In this document: piece after piece, positions 4,427 through 25,506 of the stretch | How positions within the stretch are numbered: the first letter of the stretch is position 1 | Layout: each line of letters opens with the position of its first letter | Virus record (IMG/VR): IMGVR_UViG_3300031539_000131 | Location: 1-38,386 of that record | Reading direction: 5' to 3' (one strand) | From: a virus | Length of the DNA stretch: 38,386 nt | Program-made: the position numbers and the translations under genes | Notes under the pieces: generated by a model | Databases searched by the model: none | The model's input: the letters and a program-made list of their open reading frames with translations, nothing else | Told to the model about the DNA's origin: nothing

Positions 4427-4843
4427 ATGAGTGAAGAGAGAAGCCTGTACGAGGAGCGTGAACACGCTGAACCAATAGAGTCAACCAAACTACATTTTGA
4501 CACCATCTTCAAGTTCATGATTGAGAACGACAGGGTTCCTACAGTACCAGAGACAATGGAGATAACTAAACTAAGTTACCACTACGCAGCCCACATCAGG
4601 CGCAGGGCACTCAGAGAGTTCCCTAAACTAGACATAGACGAAATAGGTTTCGCCGTCAGAAAACTCTTGATGGAACGGTTGCAGAGTGGAGATGTCGAGA
4701 CCAGTAACCTCGTTAAACTGATGCCGTGGGTAGCCCCCCAGATGGCTTCGGCGGTTGACGTGAAGCAGGAGATAACGCATAGATTCATAGTTGTAAAGCC
4801 GGGAGATGAGAAACCTGCCGAGGAAAAGGCAGAAGATAACTGA
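4427..4843 (+). CDS. Terminase small subunit (probable)
   Basis: 138 residues immediately upstream of the large terminase and overlapping it by 38 bp. The centre looks like a helix-turn-helix: VPTVPETMEITKLSYHYAAH followed by IRRRALREFPKLD. A helical oligomerisation region follows, and the C-terminus is acidic and disordered (PGDEKPAEEKAEDN). Small terminases recognise viral DNA with an N-terminal HTH and contact the large subunit with the C-terminus. The call relies on position and this layout rather than a sequence signature. Confidence 0.7.
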   Translation: MSEERSLYEEREHAEPIESTKLHFDTIFKFMIENDRVPTVPETMEITKLSYHYAAHIRRRALREFPKLDIDEIGFAVRKLLMERLQSGDVETSNLVKLMPWVAPQMASAVDVKQEITHRFIVVKPGDEKPAEEKAEDN

Positions 4844-6137
4844 GAGCCACGACTTCATATTTAAGCCCCACCCGACTCAGTGGCAAGTCTATAATGATAA
4901 ACATCGGTTTCAGATAGTGAGCGCCGGACGCAGATGGGGTAAGACGCGTTTAGAGTGGATGAAACTACTTGAAGCCGCCCTCAGCATACCTAACGGGCTA
5001 TTCTGGTGGGTAGCCAGCATATATAAGGAACTTGTACCTGCATCCCAAACGATACGTGAGACAACTCCACCAGACATCATAAGCGAACGCAGTTTCGAGA
5101 GAGAGAACATCCTCAGATACCTGAAACTCTACAACGGCACAGAGATATACTTCCACAGCGCCAACACCGAGGACAGCCTACGTGGAAGCGGCTTAGATGG
5201 ACTCGTCATAGATGAAGGGGGAAGTTTCCCGAAGATGCGGTATGAGGAGGAACTACGAGCCAGCCTCATAGATAAGAAGGGGTGGGCAATCATAGGCGGA
5301 ACGCCAAAAGGTCGCGGCTGGTTCTACGACATGTGGCTTCGAGGACAAGACTCAGAGAACTTCCCAGAATACAAGTCGTGGCAGTTCAGTAGTTATGAGA
5401 ACTCAACTGAGAACGGCGGCTACCTCGAAAAATCTGAGATAGACTCATTGGCAAAGGAACTCCCTGAGATGATATTTAGGCAGGAGATACTCGCCAACTT
5501 CATAAAAGGCGAGGGTGACGTGTTCCGAAACATATATGGTTGTATAGCAGGAGAACTCGGAGAACCAGAGCCAGATAGACGATACGTGATAGGCGGCGAC
5601 TTGGGGAAAACACAGGATTGGACTGTACTCACCGCTATGGATAACATGGGTCACATACGGGGGTTCCGCAGATTCAAGGACTTGGATTGGACTATCCAGA
5701 AACGTGAGATAAAGAACTTTCAAGCAATATATAACCAGTACGCCCCAGCGCCGATAATAATAGACGCCTCTGGGCTGGGGAACCCGATCTACGATGAGTT
5801 ATTTAATGAGGGCGTATTGGTGCGTGGATACAAGTTCACAAACGAGAGCAAACGCAATCTCATAGAGAACCTCAACCTCTGCGTAGACCAGACGAGAATA
5901 ACGATTCCCGGTACATCAACATCACTTGGAATAAGACCTGACCCCACATTAAAGGTTCTAGTGGACGAAATGGAGGGATTCACCTACGAGGTGCTACCCA
6001 GTGGAGCCATAAGGTACGAGGCATCCGGTGGAAAACACGATGATTGTGTCACGAGCCTCGGATTAGCGGCGTGGGGTGTATTCAGCGGAGGAGTAACGGG
6101 AGGAGTTAGTGCCTCAACGGGAGGTAGAAACAGGTAA
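4806..6137 (+). CDS. terL: Terminase large subunit
   Basis: 443 residues with both enzymatic domains of the DNA-packaging motor. ATPase: Walker A SAGRRWGKT at 39-47, Walker B LDGLVIDEGG at 130-139 with the D136-E137 pair, and a coupling motif IIGGTPKG at 162-169. Nuclease (RNase H-like): GGDLGKTQDW with D265, IIIDASGLG with D320, and KHDDCVTS with D412/D413. All expected catalytic residues are present, so the enzyme should be active. ATG 4806, behind GGGAG, overlaps the small subunit gene by 38 bp. Length is in the usual range. It cuts concatemeric DNA and pumps it into the prohead at the portal. Confidence 0.95.
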   Translation: MRNLPRKRQKITESHDFIFKPHPTQWQVYNDKHRFQIVSAGRRWGKTRLEWMKLLEAALSIPNGLFWWVASIYKELVPASQTIRETTPPDIISERSFERENILRYLKLYNGTEIYFHSANTEDSLRGSGLDGLVIDEGGSFPKMRYEEELRASLIDKKGWAIIGGTPKGRGWFYDMWLRGQDSENFPEYKSWQFSSYENSTENGGYLEKSEIDSLAKELPEMIFRQEILANFIKGEGDVFRNIYGCIAGELGEPEPDRRYVIGGDLGKTQDWTVLTAMDNMGHIRGFRRFKDLDWTIQKREIKNFQAIYNQYAPAPIIIDASGLGNPIYDELFNEGVLVRGYKFTNESKRNLIENLNLCVDQTRITIPGTSTSLGIRPDPTLKVLVDEMEGFTYEVLPSGAIRYEASGGKHDDCVTSLGLAAWGVFSGGVTGGVSASTGGRNR

Positions 6138-6346: not shown

Positions 6347-6504
6347 TGGGTCGTTGTAGGTGTGGTAGAGTTATACCAACAGGGTGCCCTAACTGTCCCC
6401 CACAGTTGATACGGTGCCCATGCGGAGAAATGATACTCATAGAACCCGATACAAGCGAGTTCCTGAAAGAAGTGTTAAAGAAATACAAGGAGAAACAGAG
6501 TTGA
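6346..6504 (+). CDS. Small double-knuckle zinc protein
   Basis: Start at ATG 6346, overlapping the previous TAA, with GGGGAG at 6332-6337 and an 8-nt spacer. The 52-residue product begins MGRCRCGRVIPTGCPNCPPQ and continues IRCPCGEM, giving eight Cys, enough for two zinc sites. The C-terminus is a charged helix (FLKEVLKKYKEKQS). It is coupled to the portal gene by a TTGA overlap. No family assignment. Confidence 0.75.
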   Translation: MGRCRCGRVIPTGCPNCPPQLIRCPCGEMILIEPDTSEFLKEVLKKYKEKQS

Positions 6505-7904
6505 CGGTCAGACAGAACAGGTTCATAATAGCGGTAGAGGGCTTCAGCACCCGCCTACTAGGGCCAAGGGCACCCGTAGAGGAGAAACTTAAGAGCCTCA
6601 GCGTCACCACGGGTCCACGTCTAGGAGGCAAATCGGAGTCACAGAAACCGAAGGGCATCGCAGGGTACTATGGCTGGTACGAGTCAGATGGGGCGGTGTT
6701 CGCTGCGGTCAATAGCCTCGCAGAGTTCAGCACAGGCGGAGGCTACGTGAACGCGATGCCCGGTACGACTCCAAGTGAGACTCCCGTTGAGAAGCCGAAG
6801 GAGCTTCAACTCGTTGATGAGTTAGGCGAGTTCCTTAACCTCGACTCTGTGCTACCCAACATAACTCGCAACATGTTGATAGCCGGTTTTTGTGGTGTAG
6901 AGGTTTCTATGAAGCAGTTTCCATCAAAATGCAAAATCAAGGTAATTCACCCCGCAACCATCACAAAAATTGAGTTAGGAGGCGAGAAATACCATGGAAT
7001 CGACTATATTTTGCAGAAAGTCGGCGATAAAGAGGTAAAAATAGATGGAAAAAACCTCGCTTGGTATGTCAACTATGAGATGGGGAACGATAAACGTGGC
7101 GTGAGCATCATCATGGCGATAGAGAAGCTCCTCTCAACCAAGATGAATACACTCGACAAGATAGATAAACTGCTTGACAGGCGCCTAGCCCCACTTATCA
7201 TCTGGAAGACCATGCGCGACGAGACGGCACTAAAGGAGGCGATAAGCCAGCGCGACGCCGATGAGGACATATTCCTCGGGCACCTCACACAGGAGGAGAT
7301 GGCGAGCCTCGCGCAGGTCGTTGACACCGAGGGTGACGTGAAGTACTGGGAGTACATCGAGTACATAGATAGACTTATATATAAGAGCCTCTTCGCAGGT
7401 GACTTAGATTACTGGCGTCAGGCTACTCAGGCATCCGCCACGGTGCTGTTGGAACTTGTTGACCGCAACATCATGGGCATCCAGAGACAGATTAAGCGCA
7501 GCACAGAGCAGGGAATCTATCAACCCCTCATGGAGTTAAACAATCTGGATGTTGTTCCTAGAATCATATGGAACCAGGAGGACGCCAAGTTCCGTGGAGT
7601 ACAGTTGGAGCGGTTCCTACAGACAGGTGTAAACGCGGGTTTCATACAGATGCCTCAGTTCTACGAGATACTGAAGCGCGGCGGATTAGACATACACGAG
7701 CCAGAGGAAGTTGTGGTGCCCGCCAAGGGTGGAGTTCCAATCGACCAGCCAGAGGAGCCATCCGAGGAGCCGAAGGAGACGCCTGAAGAGACCCTTAAAC
7801 TCTCGGAGGCGTTAGCGGAGGAGGCGCGGGTGAAGGCTCTACGTGAACAGTTTTACAGGGAGAGACTTGAGTTAATCAAGAAACTTGGGGAGGCGGTTAA
7901 GTGA
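6501..7904 (+). CDS. Portal protein
   Basis: 467 residues from TTG 6501 (TTGA overlap with the previous stop; AGGAG at 6488-6492, 8-nt spacer). A longer GTG start at 6414 would run through the zinc gene and is less likely. It follows terminase and has the portal layout: an N-terminal alpha/beta wing, a middle with a long helical stem region (IEKLLSTKMNTLDKIDKLLD), a conserved-looking DLDYWRQATQASATVLLELV segment and a helical crown. The C-terminal 70 residues are Pro/Glu-rich, then a charged helix. It resembles the Mu gp29-like DUF935 portals more than HK97 portals, but I cannot confirm the subfamily. Forms the dodecameric DNA channel. Confidence 0.85.
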   Translation: MTVRQNRFIIAVEGFSTRLLGPRAPVEEKLKSLSVTTGPRLGGKSESQKPKGIAGYYGWYESDGAVFAAVNSLAEFSTGGGYVNAMPGTTPSETPVEKPKELQLVDELGEFLNLDSVLPNITRNMLIAGFCGVEVSMKQFPSKCKIKVIHPATITKIELGGEKYHGIDYILQKVGDKEVKIDGKNLAWYVNYEMGNDKRGVSIIMAIEKLLSTKMNTLDKIDKLLDRRLAPLIIWKTMRDETALKEAISQRDADEDIFLGHLTQEEMASLAQVVDTEGDVKYWEYIEYIDRLIYKSLFAGDLDYWRQATQASATVLLELVDRNIMGIQRQIKRSTEQGIYQPLMELNNLDVVPRIIWNQEDAKFRGVQLERFLQTGVNAGFIQMPQFYEILKRGGLDIHEPEEVVVPAKGGVPIDQPEEPSEEPKETPEETLKLSEALAEEARVKALREQFYRERLELIKKLGEAVK

Positions 7905-8209
7905 TGAGTAGAAAGTGGAGCATCCTAGTATCGAGTGACGCGGAGGGTAAACACCCGGTCTATACTCTGGATTTTGGGGTGGTGAATGAGAACAATGAGA
8001 AGACACTGACCCTCTACATAAGAAACCTTGAAAACTACAGGGTATTCAACATAGACTACATAGTTAAGAGCAAAGACGTGCAGGTTGATGGACCGTTAAC
8101 GTTGGATAAGATGGGGTCCGCTGAACTTAAAATATCGTGGAGTGTAGGCGAGGAGACGGTTGCGTTGAAGGATGTCGTGAGTTTTAAGTGTGAGATGTTG
8201 AAGGAATAG
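7904..8209 (+). CDS. Small Ig-like beta-sandwich protein
   Basis: About 101 residues, starting at ATG 7904 or at GTG 7901, which overlaps the portal stop. GGAG at 7889-7892 serves either. Alternating strands (KTLTLYIRNLENYRVFNIDY, then GSAELKISWSVGEETV) without Cys clusters suggest an immunoglobulin-like or decoration domain: it resembles the archaeal/bacterial families in which an N-terminal strand pair precedes a LYIRNL-type core. A minor capsid or neck component is possible given its position after the portal. Confidence 0.65.
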   Translation: MSRKWSILVSSDAEGKHPVYTLDFGVVNENNEKTLTLYIRNLENYRVFNIDYIVKSKDVQVDGPLTLDKMGSAELKISWSVGEETVALKDVVSFKCEMLKE

Positions 8210-8211
8210 TC

Positions 8212-8280
8212 GTGGTTGGTGTGTATAGAAACATGAGTTACTATGGTTACTTTGCGTTGACTGTGGAGGTTGACTTTTGA
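8212..8280 (+). CDS. Very small ORF, 22 residues (tentative)
   Basis: GTG 8212 with AAGGA about 7 nt upstream opens 22 codons (VVGVYRNMSYYGYFALTVEV then DF) that stop in TGATG with the next gene. The tight fit between two genes and the coupling overlap are the only support; the composition is aromatic and hydrophobic. It may just be a translated spacer that carries ribosomes into the next start. Confidence 0.3.
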   Translation: MVGVYRNMSYYGYFALTVEVDF

Positions 8281-8711
8281 TGAGTGACTACGGGGTTTCT
8301 AAGTTGGGGGTGCGCCGCGTCGTTGACCTGATTAAGGAGTACAGACAGACGTTACATCAACTTGAACTGAATAAGAAGCAGGATTTTCCCCTACCCCTTG
8401 GATGGACGGTGGAGCAAGAAGAGGCTTTCATTGATGCCCAAATCGTTGAGATTGACAAACAGAAGGCACGTATAAAAAACAAGTTAGAAAAAGTGTGCGA
8501 GCGCGCGCTTCTGAAGCTGGGCGTTGTCAGCGATGTTACAATCACCGAGAACAGGTATGGGCGCATACGGGCGATGGCAGTATGCCCCGCCTGTAAAAAG
8601 CAGACAGACCTCGCTGAGTCTGTGGATTGGGCTGTGGTTGCTAGAACGCTGAGGATTAGGCTCAGGTGTATGGAGTGCGGGGCGCAGAAGGTGGTGACTG
8701 TAGTTGGTTGA
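8280..8711 (+). CDS. Coiled-coil zinc-ribbon protein
   Basis: ATG 8280 overlaps the preceding TGA. 143 residues: an N-terminal helical part with a coiled pattern (VVDLIKEYRQTLHQLELNKK and a second helix around IDKQKARIKNKLEKV), then a C-terminal zinc ribbon CPACKKQ...CMECG near residues 100-131. The stop overlaps the TTG of the beta-helix gene. No known family; by position it may be a minor capsid or head-completion protein or an assembly factor for the following surface protein. Confidence 0.7.
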   Translation: MSDYGVSKLGVRRVVDLIKEYRQTLHQLELNKKQDFPLPLGWTVEQEEAFIDAQIVEIDKQKARIKNKLEKVCERALLKLGVVSDVTITENRYGRIRAMAVCPACKKQTDLAESVDWAVVARTLRIRLRCMECGAQKVVTVVG

Positions 8712-10146
8712 CTTCTGTTTAGATCGTTTGAATAAGACGGGTGACCTCACGGGCACATGGACCTTCACACAGGGAAGCCCAAACGTAAATGCACCCGGAG
8801 CTGATGGGAACGCTGTAGCTGAACTTGCGGTGAACGACTATGTTAAACCTACTGCGACAAACGAATGGTATCGCGTTTTGAGCGTCACTGATGATGATAA
8901 CTTTGTGTTGGCTTACAACTTCGTTCAGGCCACACAGGTTGACGTAGTTACTAACTATGCTGATGTGTCGGTGAATGATGGAACAAGTGCGGCTAAAGCC
9001 TTCGTTCATGTTAACCAATATACAACAGATGCTGTAAGAAGCGCAGGCGACACTCTGCATCTGCGTCGAGGACAGACGCATCTGATTCAAGCCGTTCAGG
9101 TTACATCTGATGAAACCTCTTCCACAACATACATCTCAGTAATAGCCGATGATGGAACATGGTGGGTGGGAGAGGGTGGACTGGCTGCACCTATTTTTGA
9201 TTTTGGCTCGGCTCTGTTCCGATGGATAGCCGCAAGGAGTAACTGGTGGTATGAGGGTTTTGAGATTAGAAACAGCGCGTTTTCTCATGCGATGCTCGTT
9301 CAAGCTATCACATATTTCATAGACATAACATTCAGGGGTAACGTAATCGGGATTGAACTCTCAACCGTAAGTTTCTTCGTTATAGATGGGTGCGTGTTTG
9401 TGGATAACAGTTCCATAGGGATAAGCGCAGGCACTGGCTCAATTAATGGGATAATTAGGAACTGTGTTCTTGATGGCACAGGAGCAATTGGCATCAACCT
9501 TTCAGCGTCTGGTATTGTTACCATCGAGAACTGTGTATCTGGGGGAACAACCCCTTTCACAACAGGAGACATTCGCATCCAGAACTTTGGTGGAAGCGTC
9601 TACCTGATAAACTGCAAGTTAAGCAGCGCAACCCCCATCAGCGAACTTAGTTGGCGAATTGGTGGAAGACTCTATGTCGTAGATAGAGATGATACCAAGG
9701 ACTACCACCTTCTTTATTATGAAGGGGCATGGGCAGCAAAGGAAACAGGCACTACGAGAGTGGGAGGGGCAACCACTAGCATTAAGGCGACCCCATCCAC
9801 ATATTCAGATGATAACCCCCTTTATCCCTTCATTCCATTTGAGACGTGGATATATAATGCAGGTGAAGCAAAGACTTATACAATCTACATGCTGGCTGGC
9901 GGAGGATGGACAGCACTTCCTAACAGTTCAGAGGTCTACATCGAGGCACAATACTATGATGCAGGAGGCGATGCTGGGCGCGCAGAGGTTGTCTCAAACG
10001 ACGCCTTTGCCGATGAGGTTAACTGGAAAGCCTATGATGTAACCTGCACCCCTGCGGCGGCTGGAATGGTTAGGCTCAGAGTCTACTGCAAGAAGTATGA
10101 GGCTGGAAAACTCTTCTACATTGACCCGCTTCCAGTGGTGAGTTAA
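8704..10146 (+). CDS. Virion surface protein with right-handed beta-helix
   Basis: 480 residues from TTG 8704, overlapping the previous stop. Residues of about 120-330 show repeated short strands with Asn/Gly turns (VIDGCVFVDNSSIGI, GIIRNCVLDGTGAIGI, VTIENCVSGGTT), the pattern of pectate-lyase-like beta-helices found in tailspikes and capsid spikes. The C-terminal 140 residues look like a carbohydrate-binding beta-sandwich (NAGEAKTYTIYMLAGG, then a strand ending YDVTCTP). No membrane or signal peptide. It could bind or cleave host polysaccharide; no catalytic residues can be assigned. The mucin-like gene follows after 2 bp. Confidence 0.75.
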   Translation: MVDFCLDRLNKTGDLTGTWTFTQGSPNVNAPGADGNAVAELAVNDYVKPTATNEWYRVLSVTDDDNFVLAYNFVQATQVDVVTNYADVSVNDGTSAAKAFVHVNQYTTDAVRSAGDTLHLRRGQTHLIQAVQVTSDETSSTTYISVIADDGTWWVGEGGLAAPIFDFGSALFRWIAARSNWWYEGFEIRNSAFSHAMLVQAITYFIDITFRGNVIGIELSTVSFFVIDGCVFVDNSSIGISAGTGSINGIIRNCVLDGTGAIGINLSASGIVTIENCVSGGTTPFTTGDIRIQNFGGSVYLINCKLSSATPISELSWRIGGRLYVVDRDDTKDYHLLYYEGAWAAKETGTTRVGGATTSIKATPSTYSDDNPLYPFIPFETWIYNAGEAKTYTIYMLAGGGWTALPNSSEVYIEAQYYDAGGDAGRAEVVSNDAFADEVNWKAYDVTCTPAAAGMVRLRVYCKKYEAGKLFYIDPLPVVS

Positions 10147-10148
10147 CA

Positions 10149-10922
10149 TTGACTGACCCCAAGTGGGTACTTGGGCGACCCTACGAGCCGCACAGTACCA
10201 CAGACACCAATGTACGCTGGGCACTTGGGGCACCGTATCCTCCTGCATTCATTGAGGGAGCCGCCGCAACCACAACCACCACTCTACCTCCGACAACAAC
10301 GACCCTTCCTCCCACTACAACCACGCTTCCCCCGACCACTACAACCCTGCCTCCCACCACTACTACATTACCGCCAACGACTACAACCCTTCCTCCTACT
10401 ACAACTACTTTACCACCTACCACTACCACTTTACCTCCAACCACGACTACTCTTCCACCCACCACTACGACACACCCTCCAACAACTACGACTCTCCCTC
10501 CGACTACTACTACGGTTCCACCTACGACAACAACCTTACCCCCAACCACTACCACTATACCTCCGACCACCACCACATTAACTCCCCCGCCAACCACAAC
10601 CACGATAACCCCGCCACCGACAATAGAGCCAGAGGTAAGCACTGGAAAATATCCCCCGTGGCTCCCACTGCCACCGATAAAGCGTATAGAGAAAGAGATT
10701 TTAACATACAGTCTCCCCATAAAGGGAAGCATACTCACCGAACTGTTTGCATCAATCCCGTGCTCCGGCTCCGTACTAGCCAACCTTGAATACGAGTTAC
10801 CATTATCCGGCAGAGTATCAATGGTGTACTATACATCCAGACCACTAAGAGGCATAAACTGTAACGCAGTTATACGGCTGCTAGATGAACTGGATGACGA
10901 ACCCATGTATAAGGTAAATTAA
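10149..10922 (+). CDS. Mucin-like Thr/Pro repeat protein
   Basis: 257 residues from TTG 10149. The N-terminal 40 residues contain a duplicated motif (WVLGRPYEP and WALGAPYPP). Residues 41-158 form a rigid extended stalk of about 14 heptads, mostly LPPTTTT with H, V and I variants, ending in two TPPPTTTT-type units. The last 100 residues are a globular domain, probably beta, with KGSILTELFASIPCSGSV. Thr/Pro stalks like this are typical O-glycosylation targets. Codons for the repeats are highly varied at third positions. It lies just upstream of three glycosyltransferase genes, making it the prime candidate acceptor of a virus-encoded glycan. A fibre or spike stalk at the virion surface is inferred. 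Confidence 0.8.
   Translation: MTDPKWVLGRPYEPHSTTDTNVRWALGAPYPPAFIEGAAATTTTTLPPTTTTLPPTTTTLPPTTTTLPPTTTTLPPTTTTLPPTTTTLPPTTTTLPPTTTTLPPTTTTHPPTTTTLPPTTTTVPPTTTTLPPTTTTIPPTTTTLTPPPTTTTITPPPTIEPEVSTGKYPPWLPLPPIKRIEKEILTYSLPIKGSILTELFASIPCSGSVLANLEYELPLSGRVSMVYYTSRPLRGINCNAVIRLLDELDDEPMYKVN
10269..10622 (+). repeat. In-frame heptad repeat LPPTTTT, about 14 units
   Basis: The DNA encodes about 14 consecutive units of seven residues (9 LPP, then HPP, LPP, VPP, LPP and IPP), followed by two eight-residue variants. The units differ at many synonymous positions (ACA, ACC, ACG and ACT are all used), so protein identity is kept while DNA identity is lost. This suggests old repeats under selection for protein sequence, or avoidance of recombination. 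Confidence 0.9.
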
Positions 10923-10923
10923 T

Positions 10924-12618
10924 ATGAAGATAGGAATATATCACCCGTTCTCACAGTTCCCCGACAACTACAGCCTAACACACGTTGTACGGGAGCAGAT
11001 GCTCATGATCACCGAGAACGGGCACGAGTGCCACTTCATCACACATAAGAACTTCAGGGAGAAGGTTCCTGAAGGAGTAAAAGTATACCCGGTACTACCT
11101 AACCCGGACGGAGTTGAAGTAGAGAAAACATGCTCAGACATAATCAGCACACTGGACGCGGTGCTCACACACGACGTAGCCTATATGAGCGTCTACAATA
11201 ACCATGCCGCCGCAATAAAACTGATTGCCGAAGCCAACCCCCAGATTAAATGGTTCCACTGGGCACACTCAGCCCCCAACACACTTGAACAACGTGAGGC
11301 TCTCCCTAACAGCATCTATGTGGGGATGAACTACAGTGATCTCAGACTATTAGCCCAACAATTCGGCGTACCCGTAGCGCGGTGCCAAGTAGTCTATAAC
11401 CCTAGAAGCCCAGACATCTTCCATGCGTGGCATAAGGAGACAAAGGAGTTCGTTGACACACATAAACTCCTCGAATGCGACATACTTATGACGTACCCAC
11501 TTGACACTGGGCGGTTTGATGCTAAGGGCGGAAGCGACGTAATGCTTCTGGTTGACTGCCTCAATGAGCAGGGTAAGAACGCTAAAGTCGTGTTCGTGAA
11601 CGCAGCCGCCAATGACCCGGAGCGAAAGAAGAAGGTGGAGAAGTGGAGCGAAAACAAGAACACAGTCTTCACAAGCAAAGCATTCCCCCAATGGGCGCAC
11701 ACAGCCCCTAACTGGTTCGTCCACGAGTTAATGCAGATAAGTGACGTGTTCCCCCTATTCAGCATCAGCGAAGGATGCAGTTTAACGATGCTTGAAGCAG
11801 GTTTAAGCGGCGTCTTATTCCTACTCAACGAAGACTTTCCGCCCATGCTAGAGTTCGCCAATGTGGATGAAGCCATGTACTTTAAACTAGGGAGCACAAG
11901 ACAGAAAACAAATCATGTGAACCGTAAAGAGTATATGGCTGAGAGAGCAAAGTGGCTAATCTACGAGTTAGCGACAAACAAGGCACTACGGTTCAAACGC
12001 AAAGTATTGAAAACCTTCAACCGTCAATGGATATGGGAGAACCAATTAGCCCCACTGCTAGAACTAAACGTGGTAACCCCTAGACCACACGAAGAATGGT
12101 GGACTAAGAATGCACCGATAACCTTCCTCGATGGATACGATGAAGCCCGCGAACCATTATTCAAACTAGTAGCAGGCATGTGTGATGGAAACGTACTGGA
12201 TGTGGGGGCTGGCTCCTGCAAACTTTACCCCTACCTGAAGGATACGGCTAAGAGTTACACGATGCTGGAAATCACCAAGAAATTCGTGTTAGCCGCGAGG
12301 AAGACGTACCCCGAGATTAACGCTGACTATGGAACCATCCTAGACCTACCCTACAAAGATAAACAGTTCGATACCTCTGTAGCCATAGCGTTATTCAGGC
12401 ACCTCAGACCAGAGGATATGCCTAAAGCCATGAGTGAGTTAATGAGGGTAGCAGATAAGACAATTATCGGGTGGGCACTAATACCTCAAGATAAACCAAC
12501 TTATGTGAAGGAACAAGGATTCGTTGACACAGTATTCAACGTAGACGACGTAAAGACAGCAATCGGGAAACCCTTCAAGACTCATAAAGTTGGGAGATAC
12601 GAGGTATATGAAATTTAG
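10924..12618 (+). CDS. Glycosyltransferase-methyltransferase fusion (GT-B, then class I MTase)
   Basis: 564 residues. Residues 1-385 are a GT-B glycosyltransferase of GT4 type: N-terminal Rossmann (MKIGIYHPFSQFP), a donor-site E-x7-E motif at EGCSLTMLE (E283 and E291) and a C-terminal helix returning to the first domain. Residues 400-564 are a SAM methyltransferase with motif I VLDVGAGSC (424-432), an acidic strand-2 end (MLEIT) and DLPYKDKQFDTSVAIALFRH. It may add a sugar and methylate the same or a neighbouring sugar. ATG 10924 follows AAGGT by 8 nt. Compare the gene at 20926, which has the same domains in reverse order. Acceptor and donor are unknown. Confidence 0.85.
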   Translation: MKIGIYHPFSQFPDNYSLTHVVREQMLMITENGHECHFITHKNFREKVPEGVKVYPVLPNPDGVEVEKTCSDIISTLDAVLTHDVAYMSVYNNHAAAIKLIAEANPQIKWFHWAHSAPNTLEQREALPNSIYVGMNYSDLRLLAQQFGVPVARCQVVYNPRSPDIFHAWHKETKEFVDTHKLLECDILMTYPLDTGRFDAKGGSDVMLLVDCLNEQGKNAKVVFVNAAANDPERKKKVEKWSENKNTVFTSKAFPQWAHTAPNWFVHELMQISDVFPLFSISEGCSLTMLEAGLSGVLFLLNEDFPPMLEFANVDEAMYFKLGSTRQKTNHVNRKEYMAERAKWLIYELATNKALRFKRKVLKTFNRQWIWENQLAPLLELNVVTPRPHEEWWTKNAPITFLDGYDEAREPLFKLVAGMCDGNVLDVGAGSCKLYPYLKDTAKSYTMLEITKKFVLAARKTYPEINADYGTILDLPYKDKQFDTSVAIALFRHLRPEDMPKAMSELMRVADKTIIGWALIPQDKPTYVKEQGFVDTVFNVDDVKTAIGKPFKTHKVGRYEVYEI

Positions 12619-13627
12619 TGTAGTCATACCATACTCACAGGACTACCCCTGCATATGGTTCACAGTCCAGGACAAGTACCTAAGATTAATGGAGAACTAC
12701 TCACACGACGAATACGAAGTCATAATAGTAAACAACGGTTCCACTGGCGACAACCTCTCACTGGCTAGAAGAATGTGTGGGCGAGATGAGAACAACCCAA
12801 ACACCTTCACAGACCACCTATCAAAAGAACCGTCACCAATGAGGAGAAACCTCAAATACGTAGAGATAGAGAAACAGCTTTCACCCAAGACAGCCATCAA
12901 CGTTGGAGCATGGAAAGCAAAAGGCAAGTACCTGATGGTGTGCGACGCACATGTGCTGGTTAACAGCGACTACTTCACCCAAGCAGAACAGTTCATGGAT
13001 GAGAACAACGCCTGCTCTGTTCTCCACTCAAGCATAAGTTGGAACGTAAGAGACGCCACAGTGAGAGCATACCAATACAAACTAGGAGTAAACGAAGACG
13101 GAATAGGCGCAGGGCATCTTCTAGGAACATGGTCAACAACCAAACACTCAGACAAACCATACAGAGTATCATCATCAGGAACATGCTCATACATATTAAG
13201 AGCCAAAAACTTTAAAGAAAAATATGTGGGATACCCCTCAATGCTAAGAGGCTACGGCGGAGGCGAACCCTACATAGACATACTTGCATGGATGATGGGC
13301 GACGAAGTATACCTTCACCCAGACATGTACTCAGCACACTTCGCCTTAACACGGTCAAGAGGATACGACCAGGGCGGCCCCATAGTTATGGCTCGGAACT
13401 ATATTTTGGCGTGGTACATTTTAGGTGGATTAAAATGGGCTAACCTGATACGAGATAACGCGGTAAACAAGAATCGGGAACGGCACCCCGACTGGACACC
13501 TAAATTCTATGAGGCGTTCAACGAGGCTGTAAGGTGGGGGAGATTCAGGCGAAAACAGGTAGAGGAGACAGCGGATTATACTCTTGAAGAGTTGCTGAGA
13601 AAATTTAAGAATGATAACATTCCGTAG
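12608..13627 (+). CDS. GT-A glycosyltransferase with GT7/GT27-like motifs
   Basis: 339 residues from ATG 12608, overlapping the fusion gene by 11 bp; a TTG 18 nt upstream is less likely. GT-A signatures: N-terminal FSVVIPYS, VNNGSTGD (42-49), a metal-binding DxH motif in VCDAHVLV (D113, H115) and RGYGGGEPYIDILAWMMG (214-231) with a later His (H244). The DxH plus GGE arrangement is shared with polypeptide GalNAc-transferases (GT27) and the GT7 C-terminal domain, while ordinary GT2 enzymes have DxD. That is notable beside a Thr/Pro repeat protein, since GT27 starts mucin-type O-glycans. The similarity is motif-level only; a GT2 acting on other sugars is quite possible. Confidence 0.85.
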   Translation: MKFSVVIPYSQDYPCIWFTVQDKYLRLMENYSHDEYEVIIVNNGSTGDNLSLARRMCGRDENNPNTFTDHLSKEPSPMRRNLKYVEIEKQLSPKTAINVGAWKAKGKYLMVCDAHVLVNSDYFTQAEQFMDENNACSVLHSSISWNVRDATVRAYQYKLGVNEDGIGAGHLLGTWSTTKHSDKPYRVSSSGTCSYILRAKNFKEKYVGYPSMLRGYGGGEPYIDILAWMMGDEVYLHPDMYSAHFALTRSRGYDQGGPIVMARNYILAWYILGGLKWANLIRDNAVNKNRERHPDWTPKFYEAFNEAVRWGRFRRKQVEETADYTLEELLRKFKNDNIP

Positions 13628-13641
13628 GAGAAAAAGAAGCG

Positions 13642-14256
13642 TTGAAGATAGCGGCTATAGTGATGACTCTTAACGAGTCACAGAGGATAACAGACTGCCT
13701 GACACACCTGAAGCCTCACCTAGACTACATCGTGGTGGTTGACGGTGAAAGCACCGATGATACAGTTATGAAGGCATCAGGACTCGTGGATAGGGTTGTG
13801 AAGCGTCCACCGTATAAGGATTGGAGCGATGGGAAGAACTACGCTGAGACACTGGTTCCAGAGGATACGGATTGGGTTCTTCATTGCGACGCTGACGAAC
13901 GTTTCCATGATAGACTCATACCGGAGATAAAGACAGTGATAGAGGGTGTATTAGAGAAGCATCCTGAAACAATAGCCTTTAGATTTCCGAGAGCTAACTT
14001 ACCGACTTGCTTCGACTTTCCAGATTTTCAGGTGCGTCTGCTTAAACGTGGTTCAGGGTATGTGTGGAGTTACCATATCCACAGTGTGCCAACAATCAAC
14101 GGTGTAAATATCGACACGATACCTCACAGATGTATGACGATGCTCGATCTACCGATATGGCACCTTCCAAGAAGAACAGACATTAAAAGACCGTGGTGGA
14201 GCGTCGAGAAGGGAAAACGAGATAAGACAAACGAGGAAATGAAAAAAGATGAGTGA
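13642..14256 (+). CDS. GT2 family glycosyltransferase
   Basis: 204 residues from TTG 13642, with AGGAG about 11 nt upstream. The compact GT-A domain has the GT2 N-terminal strand and NES turn (MKIAAIVMTLNESQRITDCL), the nucleotide-binding VVDGESTDDT (about 32-41) and the metal-binding DxD in HCDADERF (about 81-88). The GT core is short, with a His-rich C-terminal part (VWSYHIHSVP, later IWHLPRR). Family members transfer sugars from NDP donors to glycans or lipids. Third enzyme of island A; the next gene starts within its last codons. Confidence 0.85.
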   Translation: MKIAAIVMTLNESQRITDCLTHLKPHLDYIVVVDGESTDDTVMKASGLVDRVVKRPPYKDWSDGKNYAETLVPEDTDWVLHCDADERFHDRLIPEIKTVIEGVLEKHPETIAFRFPRANLPTCFDFPDFQVRLLKRGSGYVWSYHIHSVPTINGVNIDTIPHRCMTMLDLPIWHLPRRTDIKRPWWSVEKGKRDKTNEEMKKDE

Positions 14257-17834: not shown

Positions 17835-18242
17835 ATGGTTAAAGTAATAAAGAAAGAGATTAATTATGAGGATGAAAGAGGAATAATAAGAGACATTTTG
17901 TTTAATGAGGTTATTGAACACGTTACCATTATATCATCAAAAAAGGGTGCTGTACGGGGGGATCATTACCATAAATATACGTCACAGTATACCTACGTCA
18001 TTAGAGGATCATTTAAAGTAATATCGCAGATGCAGAATGAACAAGTAGAGGTAGGGATAATTAAGCAAAACGACTTATTGTTCACCCCTCCTATGGAGAA
18101 ACATGTTTTAATCTCTTTAGAGGACTCAGAGATACTTGCACTTACAAGGGGACCGAGAGGAGGAGAAAACTATGAGAACGATACGTTTAGGTTACACGGG
18201 GCAGAGTCATTATTATCAAAAATAAAGGGGATTGCGCCATGA
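17835..18242 (+). CDS. Cupin sugar isomerase/epimerase (FdtA/WxcM type)
   Basis: 135 residues forming a single cupin domain. RGDHYHKYTSQYTYVIRGSF (about 42-61) is the FdtA/WxcM-type motif with the His-x-His pair and the Gln/Tyr on the next strand; TPPMEKHVLISLEDSE is the second cupin strand. Such enzymes convert NDP-4-keto-6-deoxy sugars by 3,4-ketoisomerisation or epimerisation. Only a distant GGGAGG (17814-17819, 15 nt spacer) precedes ATG 17835. It is translationally coupled (ATGA) to the C-methyltransferase gene. The pair is more AT-rich than the flanking structural genes, suggesting later acquisition. Confidence 0.8.
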   Translation: MVKVIKKEINYEDERGIIRDILFNEVIEHVTIISSKKGAVRGDHYHKYTSQYTYVIRGSFKVISQMQNEQVEVGIIKQNDLLFTPPMEKHVLISLEDSEILALTRGPRGGENYENDTFRLHGAESLLSKIKGIAP

Positions 18243-19474
18243 TTCAGCAACCAGTTTGCCAAGTTTGCGGTTCATTTGACTTGAAAGAGGTTTTGAACCT
18301 AGGTCTTCAACCCCTATGTAACGAATTTAAGTTACCATCCCAACTGAATAGCCCAGAGACATATTACCCTCTCTCCTTGGTGTATTGTGAGGACTGTGAA
18401 ACAGTTCAACTCTCATATATCATCCCCACCGAACAAGTATTCGGAGAACAGTACACGTATCTCACAGGTTCCACTAGGGCAGTGGTTGAGTACTTCAACA
18501 ATTTGGCTGCACAACTTATACAAAGGTTTAATCTAGTGAGAGGTGACGTAGTTATTGACATCGGATCAAACGACGGAACCTTTCTAAACGCGTTCAAACG
18601 CTTAGGCATCAACGTGTTAGGCATCGAAGGATCACCCAAACCCGCCTCCTTCGCTGAGACATACGGCATAAAAACGATTCAAAACTTTTTTGGAAAAGGA
18701 ATCTCGGAACTAATAAAAAAGGAAGTACCCGATCTAAATAGAGTTAAACTTGTTACGGCTATGAACGTCATCGCGCACACCGATAACATTAACGAGTTTT
18801 TAGATGAAGTTAAACTGATAGTGAACCCTGAAACAGTTTTTGTAACTCAGTCTCACTATTTGATTTCACTACTAGAAAACTTAGAGTTTGACACAATATA
18901 TCATGAGCATTTAAGGTACTACTCTTTAAAGAGTTTGATAAATCTATTCACAAGGCACGGTTTCACTGTTTTTGATGCAGAGGTTGTAGATGTTTATGGC
19001 GGTTCCATAGTCGTATATGCAAGTTTAAGTGATGGCAACCATACAACCACCCGGTTCCTAAATCTGCTGAAAAACGAAAACAAAGTTAACATTTTAGAGA
19101 GATTCAGAGAAACAAATAATGTACTATTACAGAACAAAGCAAAACTATTAAACATGTTATATAGATACAAAAAACAGGGTAAACATATAATTGGGGTTGG
19201 GGCGCCGATGAAGTCCTCAACACTCCTAAATTTTTATGGTATCACGCCAGACCTCTTAGACTGTTTAACTGAAGTTAACCCATTGAAGATAGGAACCATG
19301 TCCCCCGGAGTTCACATACCCGTTGTCGATGAAACCATGGTTTTCGATGACCAACCAGACTACGCTTTAATATTGTCGTGGAACATAGCAAACCAGATAA
19401 TGAAGTCGTACCGACAAAAAGGATATAAGGGGAAATTTATAATCCCGGTTCCTAAAATAAGGATCATTAAATAA
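18239..19474 (+). CDS. NDP-hexose C-methyltransferase (TylC3/NovU family)
   Basis: 411 residues with all three family domains: an N-terminal zinc site (C7, C10, C50, C53 in QPVCQVCGS and VYCEDCETVQ), a SAM domain with motif I VVIDIGSNDGTF (104-115), and the C-terminal domain with GVGAPMKSSTLLNFYGI. The catalytic DTIYHEHLRYYS motif (218-229, Y221, H222, H224) is intact. These enzymes methylate C3 (or C5) of keto-deoxysugars to make branched sugars. Its substrate could come from the SDR dehydratases of island C plus the cupin just upstream. The partner cupin and methyltransferase form a two-gene unit between two terminators. Confidence 0.9.
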   Translation: MIQQPVCQVCGSFDLKEVLNLGLQPLCNEFKLPSQLNSPETYYPLSLVYCEDCETVQLSYIIPTEQVFGEQYTYLTGSTRAVVEYFNNLAAQLIQRFNLVRGDVVIDIGSNDGTFLNAFKRLGINVLGIEGSPKPASFAETYGIKTIQNFFGKGISELIKKEVPDLNRVKLVTAMNVIAHTDNINEFLDEVKLIVNPETVFVTQSHYLISLLENLEFDTIYHEHLRYYSLKSLINLFTRHGFTVFDAEVVDVYGGSIVVYASLSDGNHTTTRFLNLLKNENKVNILERFRETNNVLLQNKAKLLNMLYRYKKQGKHIIGVGAPMKSSTLLNFYGITPDLLDCLTEVNPLKIGTMSPGVHIPVVDETMVFDDQPDYALILSWNIANQIMKSYRQKGYKGKFIIPVPKIRIIK

Positions 19475-19542
19475 ATCATTATATTACTCGGTTTACACCG
19501 AACATCATAGTCAACCCCTGAAACGTAAGTTGAGGGGGATTC

Positions 19543-19602
19543 ATGACCCCGCACAAGTACCTGCGGGCTACAAATTTTGGCACTCGGCAGACTAAAAATT
19601 AG
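19543..19602 (+). CDS. Short Shine-Dalgarno-led ORF at the capsid gene start
   Basis: ATG 19543 follows GAGGGGG (19532-19538) closely and opens 19 codons (MTPHKYLRATNFGTRQTKN) that end at TAG 19600-19602, overlapping the capsid gene in a different frame. It may be a leader peptide coupling ribosomes to the capsid start, or the true capsid N-terminus if a +1 shift or a base error lies between 19575 and 19600. A CCCGC/GCGGG inverted repeat (19548-19552 and 19563-19567) lies within it. Confidence 0.35.
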   Translation: MTPHKYLRATNFGTRQTKN

Positions 19603-20815
19603 GGAGGCTGTCGTTAGCGTCACCAACCGGGAGGTTGCACGCACGCCCATCACCATTGAGGTGAGAAATAGTTTGTCACAACCCGTAATAGAGTTAGACC
19701 TAACCGAGTTCAAGAAAGACATCAAGAGCGACCTGAAGAACTACATGGATCAGATGATGGAGAAGATGACCCCACCTGGTGAACTTAAGAGTCTCACTGA
19801 GAAGAAAGCACCTGTCGAGTTTGACTACCGGCAAGGCATAATCAAGAGACTTGGCTCATTCAAGGAACGCATTGGACTAGATGACTACAAGTACGAAGAT
19901 ATCAAGAAAGTTGCCACACCAAAATACGATGAGAAAGCGAAGACCACCAGTTACACGTTGAACGAGAGTCTCATAGAGACGATTGGCACCGTTGACCCTT
20001 CCTGCTGCATACCCGAGATATGGGCAGACAAGATTGAGCGTGACCACGTTTACCCAGGCTCCGTTTTCCTTGGAGCATGGTTCGTAAACTGGTACGATGA
20101 GATTGAGGGGAAACCAGGAGACAAGGTTCACATCTGTAGCGTCGGGCCAGCCACATGCGTTGACCTAACCTGCGATGAGCCAACCTCAGTCGCCGCAACT
20201 GTAGACTGTCCTTACATTACTCTTCAAGAGGATGCTTGTGCATACACGATCTGTCGCGCGGACATCGAGGACGTACAGGTAGGACTCGTAGACGCCTTAA
20301 ACGAGGGTCTTGGAAGCTGCCTAGCGGTCTGTATAGACAACTACTTCTTCAACATAGCGTTAAGCTGCACCAACGGCGGAACCTTAACCAGCACCGGCCC
20401 CATGACAGGCAGCCTTATACTAGAGGCAATGGGAAGCATGTTAGCGGGAACCTATACACCCGTAAAGTTAATCATGCACCCTGTCCCATGGACGAGCCTG
20501 ATGCAGGACACCAACTTCAGGTACGCCAACCAGTTCGGGGCACGCGACGTGATCACCAGCGGACGCCTAGACAACGCGTTCGGCATCGAGATCAACGTCA
20601 CCCCCAAGGGCACCCTAACTACCGGCGGAGGCACCTATCGGAGCCTTCTCCTAGCGAAGGGAGCCTTAGCTGGGGCACTGAAGCACGGTATAACCGTCGA
20701 ATCAGAGTACAGTCCACGCTTCCAGAAGAGGTGGGTCATAGCAGACATCCGCTACGGCGGAAAGTGTCTTCACCCAGACGGTATCTGGTGGATCAGAACC
20801 GTCGAGACTCCTTAA
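19577..20815 (+). CDS. Major capsid protein, HK97 fold (probable)
   Basis: 412 residues in the position of the capsid gene after protease-scaffold. Residues 30-120 are a helical, charged delta-like region (LTEFKKDIKSDLKNYMDQMM) likely to be removed by the protease. The remainder shows typical capsid features: a Cys-rich stretch (DPSCCIPEIWADKIERDHVY), an alpha/beta body (AIKLIMHP-like VKLIMHPVPWTSLMQ), and a C-terminal RFQKRWVIADIRYGGKCLHPDGIWW. The start is uncertain: TTG 19577 lacks a good Shine-Dalgarno, GTG 19661 is an alternative, and an out-of-frame SD-led ORF lies just upstream. The frame is followed by a terminator. Confidence 0.8.
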   Translation: MALGRLKIREAVVSVTNREVARTPITIEVRNSLSQPVIELDLTEFKKDIKSDLKNYMDQMMEKMTPPGELKSLTEKKAPVEFDYRQGIIKRLGSFKERIGLDDYKYEDIKKVATPKYDEKAKTTSYTLNESLIETIGTVDPSCCIPEIWADKIERDHVYPGSVFLGAWFVNWYDEIEGKPGDKVHICSVGPATCVDLTCDEPTSVAATVDCPYITLQEDACAYTICRADIEDVQVGLVDALNEGLGSCLAVCIDNYFFNIALSCTNGGTLTSTGPMTGSLILEAMGSMLAGTYTPVKLIMHPVPWTSLMQDTNFRYANQFGARDVITSGRLDNAFGIEINVTPKGTLTTGGGTYRSLLLAKGALAGALKHGITVESEYSPRFQKRWVIADIRYGGKCLHPDGIWWIRTVETP

Positions 20816-20826
20816 ACAACACAACT

Positions 20827-20866
20827 AATGCTTTAACAATCTTCTTTCCCCTATTTTCTTATAGTA
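20827..20866 (+). terminator. Terminator after the major capsid gene
   Basis: AATGCTTTAA (20827-20836) is followed by a pyrimidine tract (CTTCTTTCCCCTATTTTCTT) right after the capsid stop. It matches the element at 17767-17793. A pyrimidine-rich U-tract with no stable stem fits archaeal-type termination. It separates the capsid transcript from glycan island C. Confidence 0.55.
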
Positions 20867-20912
20867 AAGTTTTAATATAAGGTAGTTAAACTATATAGAG
20901 ATATATAGTTTA
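20867..20912 (+). promoter_or_regulatory. Promoter of glycan island C with inverted repeat
   Basis: Two TATA-like blocks (TTTTAATATAA near 20868-20878 and AACTATATA at 20889-20897) precede the first gene of island C. The second block lies in a perfect inverted repeat with 10-bp arms, TAAACTATAT at 20887-20896 and ATATAGTTTA at 20903-20912, around a 6-bp spacer. Starts from the second block would fall near 20920-20933, close to the TTG codons at 20926 and 20935, so a leaderless message is possible. Confidence 0.5.
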
Positions 20913-20925
20913 GTAGTGTTAGTAG

Positions 20926-22947
20926 TTGGTAGACTTGAGTAAACGAGACATTAAGCGTAGTAGCGACAAGGTTTTTAAAGGGTCAAAGGACTCCACGTTC
21001 TATTCTAGTGGATACTTTTTAAGCGGAATCGGTAGCAACTACGGGGTTGGGGGCTTCATCCCGTATGATGAGCAGTACCTTGAACGTGACCGAGCAACCA
21101 TCCCGGCAATCCGCAACACTCTGAAAACGCATGGTTCTGACCTTAAAAGCGCCCTGATACTTGGTTGTGCGCGAGGTTACTTGATACAAGCCTTCAGAGA
21201 GACGGATGTGGAGGCTGTCGGCGTAGACATCAGCGAATGGGCTGTGGAGAACTGCGCCGAGGGTGCAGAGGACCACATCTACTGTGGCGACGTGTGCGAC
21301 CTCTCTAAGTGGCGTGACGGCGAGTTCACGATTGCGGTTGCCTTTGATATTTTTGAACATATAACTGTACCCGACCTATATGGTGCAATTAACGAGGCGT
21401 GCAGGGTGGCTGAGTGGGTGGTGATTAACCTCCCCATTAACCCAGACGATGAGACACCCGATATGAGTGCAGGGCAGGATAAGAGTCATGTAAGCGTCTA
21501 CAGTAAGATGTGGTGGATACAACAGTTCATGGCTGCTGGGCATGAGCCGGCGGACGTACAAGAATGGATGTACCCGACGCCAAGCCCCGGCAGCAGATGG
21601 GATGATAAAAAGGATCACAACGTTACAATCTATTTCCGTAAAGCAGAGAAAAATATAACCATCAAACACATATCGATACCCACCATAAAGGAAGGCGAGA
21701 AAGGCTTCAAAATACTCTGGTGGTCAAACGGATCATGGTGCGGAACTGGATACGGCGTTGGAACTAAACACGTTATCTATCCATTGAACGAACACTATGA
21801 TGTAGCGGCTTTAGCATATTGGGGTCTTGAGGGAGCCGCACTTAACTTCAATGGATTAAAAGTGTTCCCCAAGATGTATGACCAGTTCGGAATAGATGCG
21901 GCGGATTTGATTTGCCGAAACTGGAAACCTGACATCATGATCACATTATTTGATATCTGGATAGGTGACTCGCCACTATTTAATGGAGAGCGAGATTGGT
22001 TTAGCAAGATACATCCCCATTGGTGTCCGTACTTCCCTGTAGATCACTACCCTATACCTATACCTATTCTCAACCAGGCGCAGAAGGCTTATCATTGTAT
22101 AGCGATGAGCAAATTCGGGTTAAAGGAACTACGTAATAATCATATAGATGCTTCCTATATCCCACACGGTGTTGAAACAAAGGTTTTTACACCAATAGAG
22201 GATAACACTATCCCACGTAAATGGTTAATAGACACTGCGGGTATCCCCCTCTTCAGCGGTTCCGAGGTGGAGAAATGGGATCATGATAATTTCATCATCG
22301 GTAAAGTGGCGGCTAATAAAGATACTTCCCGTAAAGGGTTTGATAGGGAGATGGCTGCCTTCAGAATCTTCCTTGATCAGAACCCTGACGCTAAGAAGGA
22401 TGCACGCCTATACTGGCACACTGACCCAAGGTTCCCCGGAGGATACCACCTAGACCACTACGCGCATCTAATGGACATAGATAGGTACATTAAGAAGACT
22501 CACCCGTTCTACCTATATGGTGGAGTATCTGAACCTAATATGGCTAAGATGTACCAGAGTTTCAACCTATTCACTAATGTCTCAAGAGCCGAGGGTTTCG
22601 GGATTCCAATTATAGAGGCCCAGAGTTGCGGTGTGCCCGCCGTAGTAAATAATTCTACTTCGATGCCTGAACTCGTGTCTGGGCATGGGTGGGTGTGTAA
22701 ACCTAAGACTTGGGAGACAACGGCGTTACTTAGCAGCACCTTTATACCCGACGAATACGAAATAGCAAAAGTATATAGTGAAGCCTATAATAACCCTGAT
22801 CAGTTGAAGTCATATGGTGTAGCGTCACGGGACTTCGCCGAACAGTATGATTGGGACAACGTGATAGTTCCTCAATGGTTACAGTTAATAGAGAAACTTA
22901 GGGAAGAGTTAGGTACAAAGACGTTAGATGAAAGGAGGTTGATTTAG
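20926..22947 (+). CDS. Methyltransferase-glycosyltransferase fusion (reverse order)
   Basis: 673 residues from TTG 20926 (no Shine-Dalgarno; TTG 20935 is an alternative). Residues 60-240 are a SAM methyltransferase: motif I ALILGCARGYL (76-86), VGVDIS and AFDIFEHI (139-146). Residues 262-655 are a GT-B enzyme of GT4 type, with WWSNGSWCGTGYGVG, IGKVAANKDTSRKGF and the donor-site EGFGIPIIEAQSCGVPAVV with the E-x7-E pair (E556, E564). The methyltransferase comes first here, whereas the gene at 10924 has the glycosyltransferase first. It starts the seven-gene sugar operon C behind its own promoter. Donor and acceptor unknown. Confidence 0.85.
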   Translation: MVDLSKRDIKRSSDKVFKGSKDSTFYSSGYFLSGIGSNYGVGGFIPYDEQYLERDRATIPAIRNTLKTHGSDLKSALILGCARGYLIQAFRETDVEAVGVDISEWAVENCAEGAEDHIYCGDVCDLSKWRDGEFTIAVAFDIFEHITVPDLYGAINEACRVAEWVVINLPINPDDETPDMSAGQDKSHVSVYSKMWWIQQFMAAGHEPADVQEWMYPTPSPGSRWDDKKDHNVTIYFRKAEKNITIKHISIPTIKEGEKGFKILWWSNGSWCGTGYGVGTKHVIYPLNEHYDVAALAYWGLEGAALNFNGLKVFPKMYDQFGIDAADLICRNWKPDIMITLFDIWIGDSPLFNGERDWFSKIHPHWCPYFPVDHYPIPIPILNQAQKAYHCIAMSKFGLKELRNNHIDASYIPHGVETKVFTPIEDNTIPRKWLIDTAGIPLFSGSEVEKWDHDNFIIGKVAANKDTSRKGFDREMAAFRIFLDQNPDAKKDARLYWHTDPRFPGGYHLDHYAHLMDIDRYIKKTHPFYLYGGVSEPNMAKMYQSFNLFTNVSRAEGFGIPIIEAQSCGVPAVVNNSTSMPELVSGHGWVCKPKTWETTALLSSTFIPDEYEIAKVYSEAYNNPDQLKSYGVASRDFAEQYDWDNVIVPQWLQLIEKLREELGTKTLDERRLI

Positions 22948-23753: not shown

Positions 23754-23754
23754 A

Positions 23755-24666: not shown

Positions 24667-25195
24667 CATATATGGGGCATTAGTTGAAGGTACGTTATAC
24701 GATGACCGAGAGTTTCTTCTCCCTCTATTTAAAAAGATAATTGGGCGATATGATGATGGGTATAGTAGGATACTAGATGTAGGATGCGGTTCACTCTGTG
24801 AACCATTCATCAAAATATATGGTGAAAGATATGTTGGGTTGGATGTTCCATCATCACTTTATCCTAAGACTGGTTTATGGGTTGAAGGTGACGCCCATGA
24901 CCTATCTCAGTACCCTGATAATAGTTTTGACATAGTGACGATGTTCAGCGTATTGGAGCACCTATATGACCCGTATGTGGGGCTATCTGAGGCTATAAGA
25001 GTAGCTAAGAAAGTTGTTATAATTACCACAGATTATATGCAGACAGATAAAGATAGGGCGGTTGATCATTACTATGCGTGGACACCTAAAACTCTACTCC
25101 ACCTATTAACTTTATTTGGTAAGGCTAAGACATGGACGGAGGGAAGCATTGTTCCCAGCGTGATGGATGTTCTTTGTGGAGTGATAGAGAAATGA
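24656..25195 (+). CDS. Class I SAM methyltransferase
   Basis: 179 residues, overlapping the SDR gene by 11 bp. SAM motif I is ILDVGCGSLCEP (39-50), followed by VGLDVPS at strand 2, WVEGDAHDLSQYPDNSFDIV and a VLEHLYDPYVGL segment typical of small-molecule or sugar methyltransferases of the Methyltransf_11 type. The substrate cannot be told from sequence; its place in island C suggests O-methylation of a sugar or glycan terminus. It overlaps the next gene by ATGA. Confidence 0.8.
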   Translation: MITNIYGALVEGTLYDDREFLLPLFKKIIGRYDDGYSRILDVGCGSLCEPFIKIYGERYVGLDVPSSLYPKTGLWVEGDAHDLSQYPDNSFDIVTMFSVLEHLYDPYVGLSEAIRVAKKVVIITTDYMQTDKDRAVDHYYAWTPKTLLHLLTLFGKAKTWTEGSIVPSVMDVLCGVIEK

Positions 25196-25500: not shown

Positions 25501-25506
25501 AGAAAC

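Follow-up and report, generated by a model that had tools for sequence, protein, structure and literature searches.

In this work, we describe a run of adjoining genes, in a virus record of the IMG/VR collection (IMGVR_UViG_3300031539_000131), in which a protein carrying a long array of threonine- and proline-rich heptads, the stalk protein, is directly followed by glycosyltransferases (GTs), one of which, a GT-A enzyme, resembles the GT27 family. The record, 38,386 bases long and analysed as a whole (hereafter, the window), features the gene set of a tailed virus of microbes, and might represent just part of a genome. To the proposal that these genes form a virus-encoded operon for O-glycosylation of virion protein, having the stalk as its main acceptor, the likeliest of the readings considered, we give even chances. 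The features on which the proposal is built are the following.

10149..10922, plus strand: stalk protein, 257 aa, composed of an N-terminal tandem motif, a Pro/Thr array and a C-terminal small domain
10284..10577, plus strand: 14 contiguous perfect (L/H/V/I)PPTTTT heptads, supported by a tandem repeat finder
10924..12618, plus strand: fusion of a GT-B (GT4-like) enzyme and an S-adenosylmethionine-dependent methyltransferase (Methyltransf_11 1.2e-11, Glycos_transf_1 0.0034, phrog_2170 0.0044)
12608..13627, plus strand: GT-A glycosyltransferase, 339 aa, GT27-like (DxH, GGE and His), identified by PF00535 and by a family profile
12944..12952, plus strand: DAH (D113-A114-H115) within CDAHVL, a putative metal-binding DxH, aligned with DCH/DAH of the N-acetylgalactosamine transferases (GalNAc-Ts) T4 and T12 and of Toxoplasma GalNAc-T
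13256..13270, plus strand: GGGEP, residues 217-221, aligned with WGGEN of GalNAc-Ts
13337..13339, plus strand: H244, falling on the His of GHVF, which is the third metal ligand in GalNAc-Ts
13642..14256, plus strand: small GT2 enzyme, 204 aa, with a DAD motif, resembling GmaR, SunS and ThuS in its first 90 residues

The heptad array is old at the DNA level and is maintained as protein. Eleven of the 14 units read LPPTTTT, while one each starts with H, V and I, close to the figure of about 14 LPPTTTT heptads given in an earlier note on this DNA; a decayed tail follows, up to about 10625. The tandem repeat finder reports a period of 21 at 10278-10576, with a 70% DNA match, and the whole protein contains 76 Thr and 51 Pro out of 257 residues. 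Pro and Thr are intact in all of the 84 heptad codons at which they are found, and identity, averaged over pairs of units, reaches 0.91 at the first codon position and 0.98 at the second, dropping to 0.273 at the third. Shuffling codons within the array gives a third-position identity of 0.263, and 23% of the shuffles reach the observed value. Since Pro and Thr codons are intact, while third bases are as varied as in randomly chosen codons, the array must have been kept at the protein level, and the repeat units do share amino acids while differing in codons, as the same note had remarked. Adjacent units are not closer in DNA than remote ones, and exact DNA repeats reach 12 bases at most. Recent slippage or fresh duplication, considered as the origin of the array, was ruled out by the codon test.

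A minus-strand open reading frame (ORF) of 200 aa (10181-10783), containing VVVVGGR repeats, mirrors the array because wobble bases coincide, a pitfall for gene callers; a similar mirror frame is found at 7197-7571 of contig L016, described below. Wobble variation by itself is equally silent in the mirrored ORF. The heptad Leu, however, is kept in the plus frame by means of both TTA (4) and CTN (7) codons, whereas the corresponding minus-strand residue varies among K, R, T, C, N, S and I: the plus frame is therefore the coding one, and minus-strand coding of the array was discarded.

Outside the array, the stalk protein features the tandem motif KWVLGRPYEP/RWALGAPYPP at its N-terminus and LPxxG(S/R) repeats in its C-terminal domain. 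No match for the protein was found in Pfam, PHROG or phage records, nor, once its repeats were removed, was any found in phage records; its N-terminal part, compared with the related loci, matches itself only. A hydropathy scan detected neither transmembrane nor hydrophobic signal stretches.

The GT-A enzyme carries the CDAHVL and GGGEP motifs that had been pointed out in it. Its Pfam match, PF00535 (E 1.1e-9), is the domain of typical GT2 enzymes, and is shared clan-wide; the DxD motif of typical GT2 enzymes is replaced by DAH. In GalNAc-Ts, the Asp and His of DxH, together with a distal His, are the Mn ligands (PMC11074326). Relatives of the enzyme were recognized in phage Tunturi_4 (gp2, 27% identity) and in three viral contigs, G001 and G002 (also L017 and L018) and G003 (L016). 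Alignment of the five sequences over the catalytic region leaves just 14 invariant residues, which include D113, H115, E220 and H244. Relatives were not found by scans of viral contigs with the single protein or with two sequences, nor by scans of genome contigs by alignment or by the G(G/E)EPY motif, the automatic patterns being narrow.

A profile of these five viral DxH enzymes, 239 positions long, was searched against PDB, and its best matches are GalNAc-T4 (3.7e-15), T12 (3.6e-12), Toxoplasma GalNAc-T (4.1e-12) and T10 (4.9e-11). Positions 4-233 of the 239 align with GalNAc-T4, thus covering the whole catalytic domain, while GT2 enzymes align over the first 125-150 positions or so only. 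The alignments to GalNAc-Ts, most of which extend over nearly the full length, place DxH on DxH and GGE on WGGE; H244 is paired with the His of GHVF, except in T10, whose alignment ends before this residue. In the reverse test, a small GalNAc-T model was run on four DxH enzymes and on three GT2 controls from viruses, and all four scored higher than the controls; on the window enzyme it extends from residue 95 to 244, with all three motifs aligned, at a low score.

A structural comparison, proposed in the earlier note as a check on the product of 12608-13627, was carried out by two AlphaFold runs, with 4 and 6 sequences, followed by Foldseek searches against PDB and BFVD. Both models are poor, their predicted local distance difference test score (pLDDT) being 58, and retrieve generic GT-A folds from both databases. 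TarS, RmlT and TarP come first by E-value, and GalNAc-Ts are found at a similar query TM-score (0.42-0.47), so that GT2 wall-teichoic-acid enzymes and GalNAc-Ts, being about equally close to such models, are not separated. Residues past 257 are predicted as helical in these low-confidence models. Because the models are poor, structure was left unused as evidence for GT27.

Recurrence of the pairing was evaluated from both sides. A search for three PPTTTT units selected 13 viral stretches, one of which, G003, is a distinct virus, where a PPTTTT/SSTTTT protein (6958-7584) overlaps a GT2 gene (7581-8288), followed in turn by a GT-A enzyme with a DCH motif (8285-9112). The trio lies between portal and major head genes, as in the window, and its GT-A enzyme is recovered at E 2.4e-7 by a model built without G003. 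Contigs G001 and G002, related to each other, were found through the GT motif; in both, a multi-domain protein with Ser/Thr octads (STTRSSSV type) is encoded downstream of the GT-A gene, at a distance of 1.5 kb in G001 and 0.45 kb in G002. A Ser/Thr-rich tract, defined as an ORF with at least 30 Ser/Thr in 50 residues, is thus present in one of the two lineages found through the GT, to be compared with none in a random sample of 52 viral stretches, 439 kb in total, while from the tract side the GT is found in one case out of 13. Random stretches searched with the GT model gave a best E of 0.018, none being convincing. Pairing of a DxH GT-A enzyme with Ser/Thr repeats, within about 1.5 kb, in two other viral lineages is suggestive of a link, but does not prove it.

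In the large proteins of G001 (L025, 4017-8513) and G002 (L030, 10027-14775), SSSVSTTR octad arrays separate globular domains; one domain of the latter looks by eye like a right-handed beta-helix, the fold also assigned to the protein encoded just before the stalk in the window. Separately, Thr-rich proteins of contigs L006, L011, L012, L013 and L014 share a C-terminal motif around DIYKEGLDDYVPVGSxIPVGQRR, and constitute a recurrent viral family found in different contigs.

The surrounding genes of the window include structural genes and a second group of glycan genes.

4806..6137, plus strand: terminase large subunit (Pfam and PHROG)
6414-7904: portal-like protein (weak match)
8704..10146, plus strand: right-handed beta-helix protein, 480 aa, directly 5' of the stalk gene (Pfam Beta_helix)
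17835..19474, plus strand: cupin-like protein and C-methyltransferase (Methyltransf_13/14), of the sugar-modifying type
19577..20815, plus strand: major head protein (phrog_267 2.4e-6)
20926-22947, plus strand: methyltransferase-GT4 fusion, second glycan block
22947-23753, plus strand: Anp1-like GT, second glycan block
23755-24666 and 26114-27037, plus strand: two nucleoside diphosphate-sugar dehydratase/epimerases, second glycan block
24656-25195, plus strand: methyltransferase, second glycan block
25507-26124, plus strand: GDSL esterase, second glycan block
29102-29551: neck protein
29548-31713: tape measure protein

The interval from portal to head contains, all on the plus strand, the beta-helix, stalk, fusion, GT-A and small GT2 genes, closely packed: the stalk start codon lies 2 bases past the beta-helix stop codon, the stalk stop (10920-10922) is separated by a single base from the ATG of the fusion at 10924, and the end of the fusion gene (12618) overlaps the GT-A ATG at 12608. 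The stalk gene does therefore stand directly before a GT-methyltransferase fusion, as had been noted: the methyltransferase half is clear, while the match to GT group 1 is weak (0.0034), phrog_2170 being itself a glycosyltransferase family. GT genes lie inside the structural module in G003 too, where, as in the window, they are located between terminase/portal and head, while in Tunturi_4 the gene stands beside the terminase. The beta-helix protein, whose match (E 1.6e-5) is just below the curated cut-off, is a possible virion adhesin or spike. For the terminase, the nearest named phages are Tunturi_4 and Halorubrum phage Hardycor1, both at 31% identity. No replication genes were recognized among the window genes scanned, and no plasmid match was found. 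Positions 1-1400, devoid of ORFs of at least 60 aa, contain short tandem repeats (374-417) and an AC-rich run (1251-1341), and look like a non-coding end.

The only PDB matches of the small GT2 enzyme are GmaR, SunS and a third protein, which we take to be ThuS, all protein or peptide glycosyltransferases; SunS also ranks first in NCBIfam. This enzyme may be the initiating one, with the DxH GT-A enzyme then extending the glycan. The sugar-modification genes at 17835-27037 are interleaved with the head gene, and, given this set, the virus seems able both to synthesise complex, methylated glycans and to transfer them to an acceptor. The hydropathy scan detected no transmembrane segments in the three adjacent GTs or in the Anp1-like GT.

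According to the proposed mechanism, the stalk protein would be synthesised in the host cytoplasm alongside its own enzymes, because the genes adjoin or overlap and transmembrane segments are missing. Either the soluble GT27-like enzyme, or the neighbouring GmaR/SunS-like GT2, would put the first sugar on Thr residues of the PPTTTT heptads, and the GT4-methyltransferase fusion, together with the downstream sugar-making block, would lengthen and methylate the glycan. The decorated, extended Pro/Thr stalk would then enter the virion, probably beside the beta-helix protein, as a rigid, protease-resistant, sugar-coated arm. What the sequences show is the order of the genes, their motifs, a repeat conserved as protein, a profile resembling GT27 and recurrence in further viruses; acceptor, initiating enzyme, donor sugar and place in the virion are inferred.

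Various observations weigh against this reading. Searched alone in PDB as a single sequence, the window GT-A enzyme matches GT2 structures only, and a profile made of it and its Tunturi_4 homologue reaches GalNAc-Ts just at E 0.04-0.6. An ordinary GT2 control scores similarly in the GGE half of the GalNAc-T model, and the GGE motif was accordingly rejected as GT27-specific. The Ricin_B lectin domain of GT27 enzymes was not matched by Pfam in the 339 residues. As an initiating candidate, the small GT2 enzyme of the same operon is as good as the GT-A one. Within the stretches examined, 12 of the 13 viral contigs with PPTTTT repeats lack a DxH GT-A enzyme, so that the tract does not need the enzyme; conversely, Tunturi_4, which encodes the enzyme next to its terminase, gave no tract rich enough in Ser/Thr to pass the threshold. 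Finally, the recurrence sample is small and was partly chosen by the tract itself. The weak match of the lone enzyme, the non-specific GGE half, the poor models and the missing ricin domain led us to label the enzyme as GT27-like rather than to file it under GT27; transfer of GalNAc to peptides is a candidate activity. Of the suggestion that it resembles GT27 or GT7 rather than GT2, the GT27 part is partly supported, by the family profile and just weakly by the lone enzyme, while GT7 was rejected, since the motif is DxH instead of DxD and no Pfam GT7 domain (Glyco_transf_7C) is matched.

The Thr/Pro array might instead serve simply as an extended spacer, left bare or modified just by chance, with the nearby GTs acting on other virion proteins, for instance the major head protein, the beta-helix protein or the tail tube. 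PPTTTT linkers do occur in many viral and secreted proteins with no DxH GT-A enzyme close by, the second glycan block adjoins the head gene, and glycosylation of capsid and tail-tube proteins in phages is established (cited in PMC12619734 and PMC10877033). Against such an arrangement stand the stalk and GT genes, which abut or overlap, and a pairing found again in G003 and in G001/G002, and we regard it as rather unlikely.

Quite improbable, in our opinion, is a role of the glycan genes in altering the surface of the host (S-layer, lipopolysaccharide or wall glycan), so as to prevent superinfection or to change receptors, with the stalk as an unrelated neighbour. PHROG places two glycosyltransferase families matched here, phrog_2170 and phrog_13126, in its moron/host-takeover category, and the best matches of the poor structural models are the wall-teichoic-acid transferases TarS, TarP and RmlT; yet the stalk and the four GT proteins tested lack transmembrane segments, the genes scanned included no recognizable flippase, polymerase or membrane enzyme of the GtrA/GtrB type, and the glycan genes lie among those for virion structure. 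That the enzymes and their putative acceptor are soluble, and are encoded together there, points to a stalk glycosylated in the cytoplasm, prior to assembly, rather than to a remodelled host envelope. Hypermodification of viral DNA bases by these GTs is more improbable by far: viruses do encode GTs that add sugars to DNA (Pyle et al. 2024, as cited in PMC12619734), but no thymidylate-synthase-like or base-hydroxylating gene was recognized among the genes scanned, although replication genes were not recognized there either in what may be a fragment, and adjacency to the stalk would be left unexplained.

A similar pairing is found in two unrelated viral lineages, so that sugar-coated stalks may be structures which viruses make for themselves. 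In its broadest form, the proposal that tailed viruses of prokaryotes possess self-contained mucin-type O-glycosylation, with a GT27-related initiator and a tandem-repeat acceptor encoded in one operon in several unrelated lineages and producing sugar-coated virion stalks, is a tentative one, possible but doubtful. To our knowledge, mucin-type initiation by GT27 enzymes is regarded as a eukaryotic trait; if the proposal is true, viral DxH GT-A enzymes beside Ser/Thr repeats would carry it over to viruses of microbes, and would provide soluble, one-step tools for protein O-glycosylation, free of lectin domain and membrane anchor. Sugar-coating by viruses of their own appendages would become directly testable, and a DxH GT-A gene adjoining a Ser/Thr-rich tandem array may be used as a search rule for virion glycoproteins.

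The window system may be compared with several known ones. With GT27 enzymes (human GalNAc-T4, T12 and T10, and Toxoplasma GalNAc-T) it shares the catalytic-domain profile, DxH, the GGE glutamate and the distal His, along with a putative Thr/Pro-rich acceptor encoded next door; it differs in that the similarity is remote, ricin lectin domain and membrane anchor are missing, the source is a virus of a microbe, and donor and acceptor are putative. Among viruses, it may be compared with Tunturiibacter phage Tunturi_4, whose gp2 is a 27% identical DxH GT-A enzyme (DNH, GEEP) encoded in the structural module, adjoining the terminase, although no Ser/Thr-rich stalk was found in its genome. GmaR, SunS and ThuS, GT2 protein/peptide glycosyltransferases, are the solved structures that the small GT2 enzyme (13642-14253) matches best, but the match is confined to the first 90 residues, and the window enzyme, 204 aa long, is devoid of the remaining parts.

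Serine-rich repeat glycoproteins of Gram-positive bacteria are likewise Ser/Thr acceptors of low complexity, whose genes are linked to those of the cytosolic GTs that modify them (PMC7948813, PMC5207161). They rely, however, on accessory Sec export and on initiation by GtfA/GtfB, while in the window no export signal was seen, no accessory Sec or GtfA-GtfB genes were recognized among the genes scanned, and the GT-A enzyme is the initiating candidate. Virion glycosylation in mycobacteriophages (Freeman et al. 2023, as reported in PMC10877033 and PMC12619734) is likewise carried out by phage-encoded GTs on virion proteins, but its targets are the C-termini of capsid and tail-tube proteins, whereas the window combines a DxH GT-A enzyme with a stalk of tandem repeats, predicted to be a dedicated acceptor. 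As modification of capsid and tail tube by phage GTs is established, the kind of process is known, and what would be new here is the dedicated mucin-like acceptor, joined to a GT27-like enzyme.

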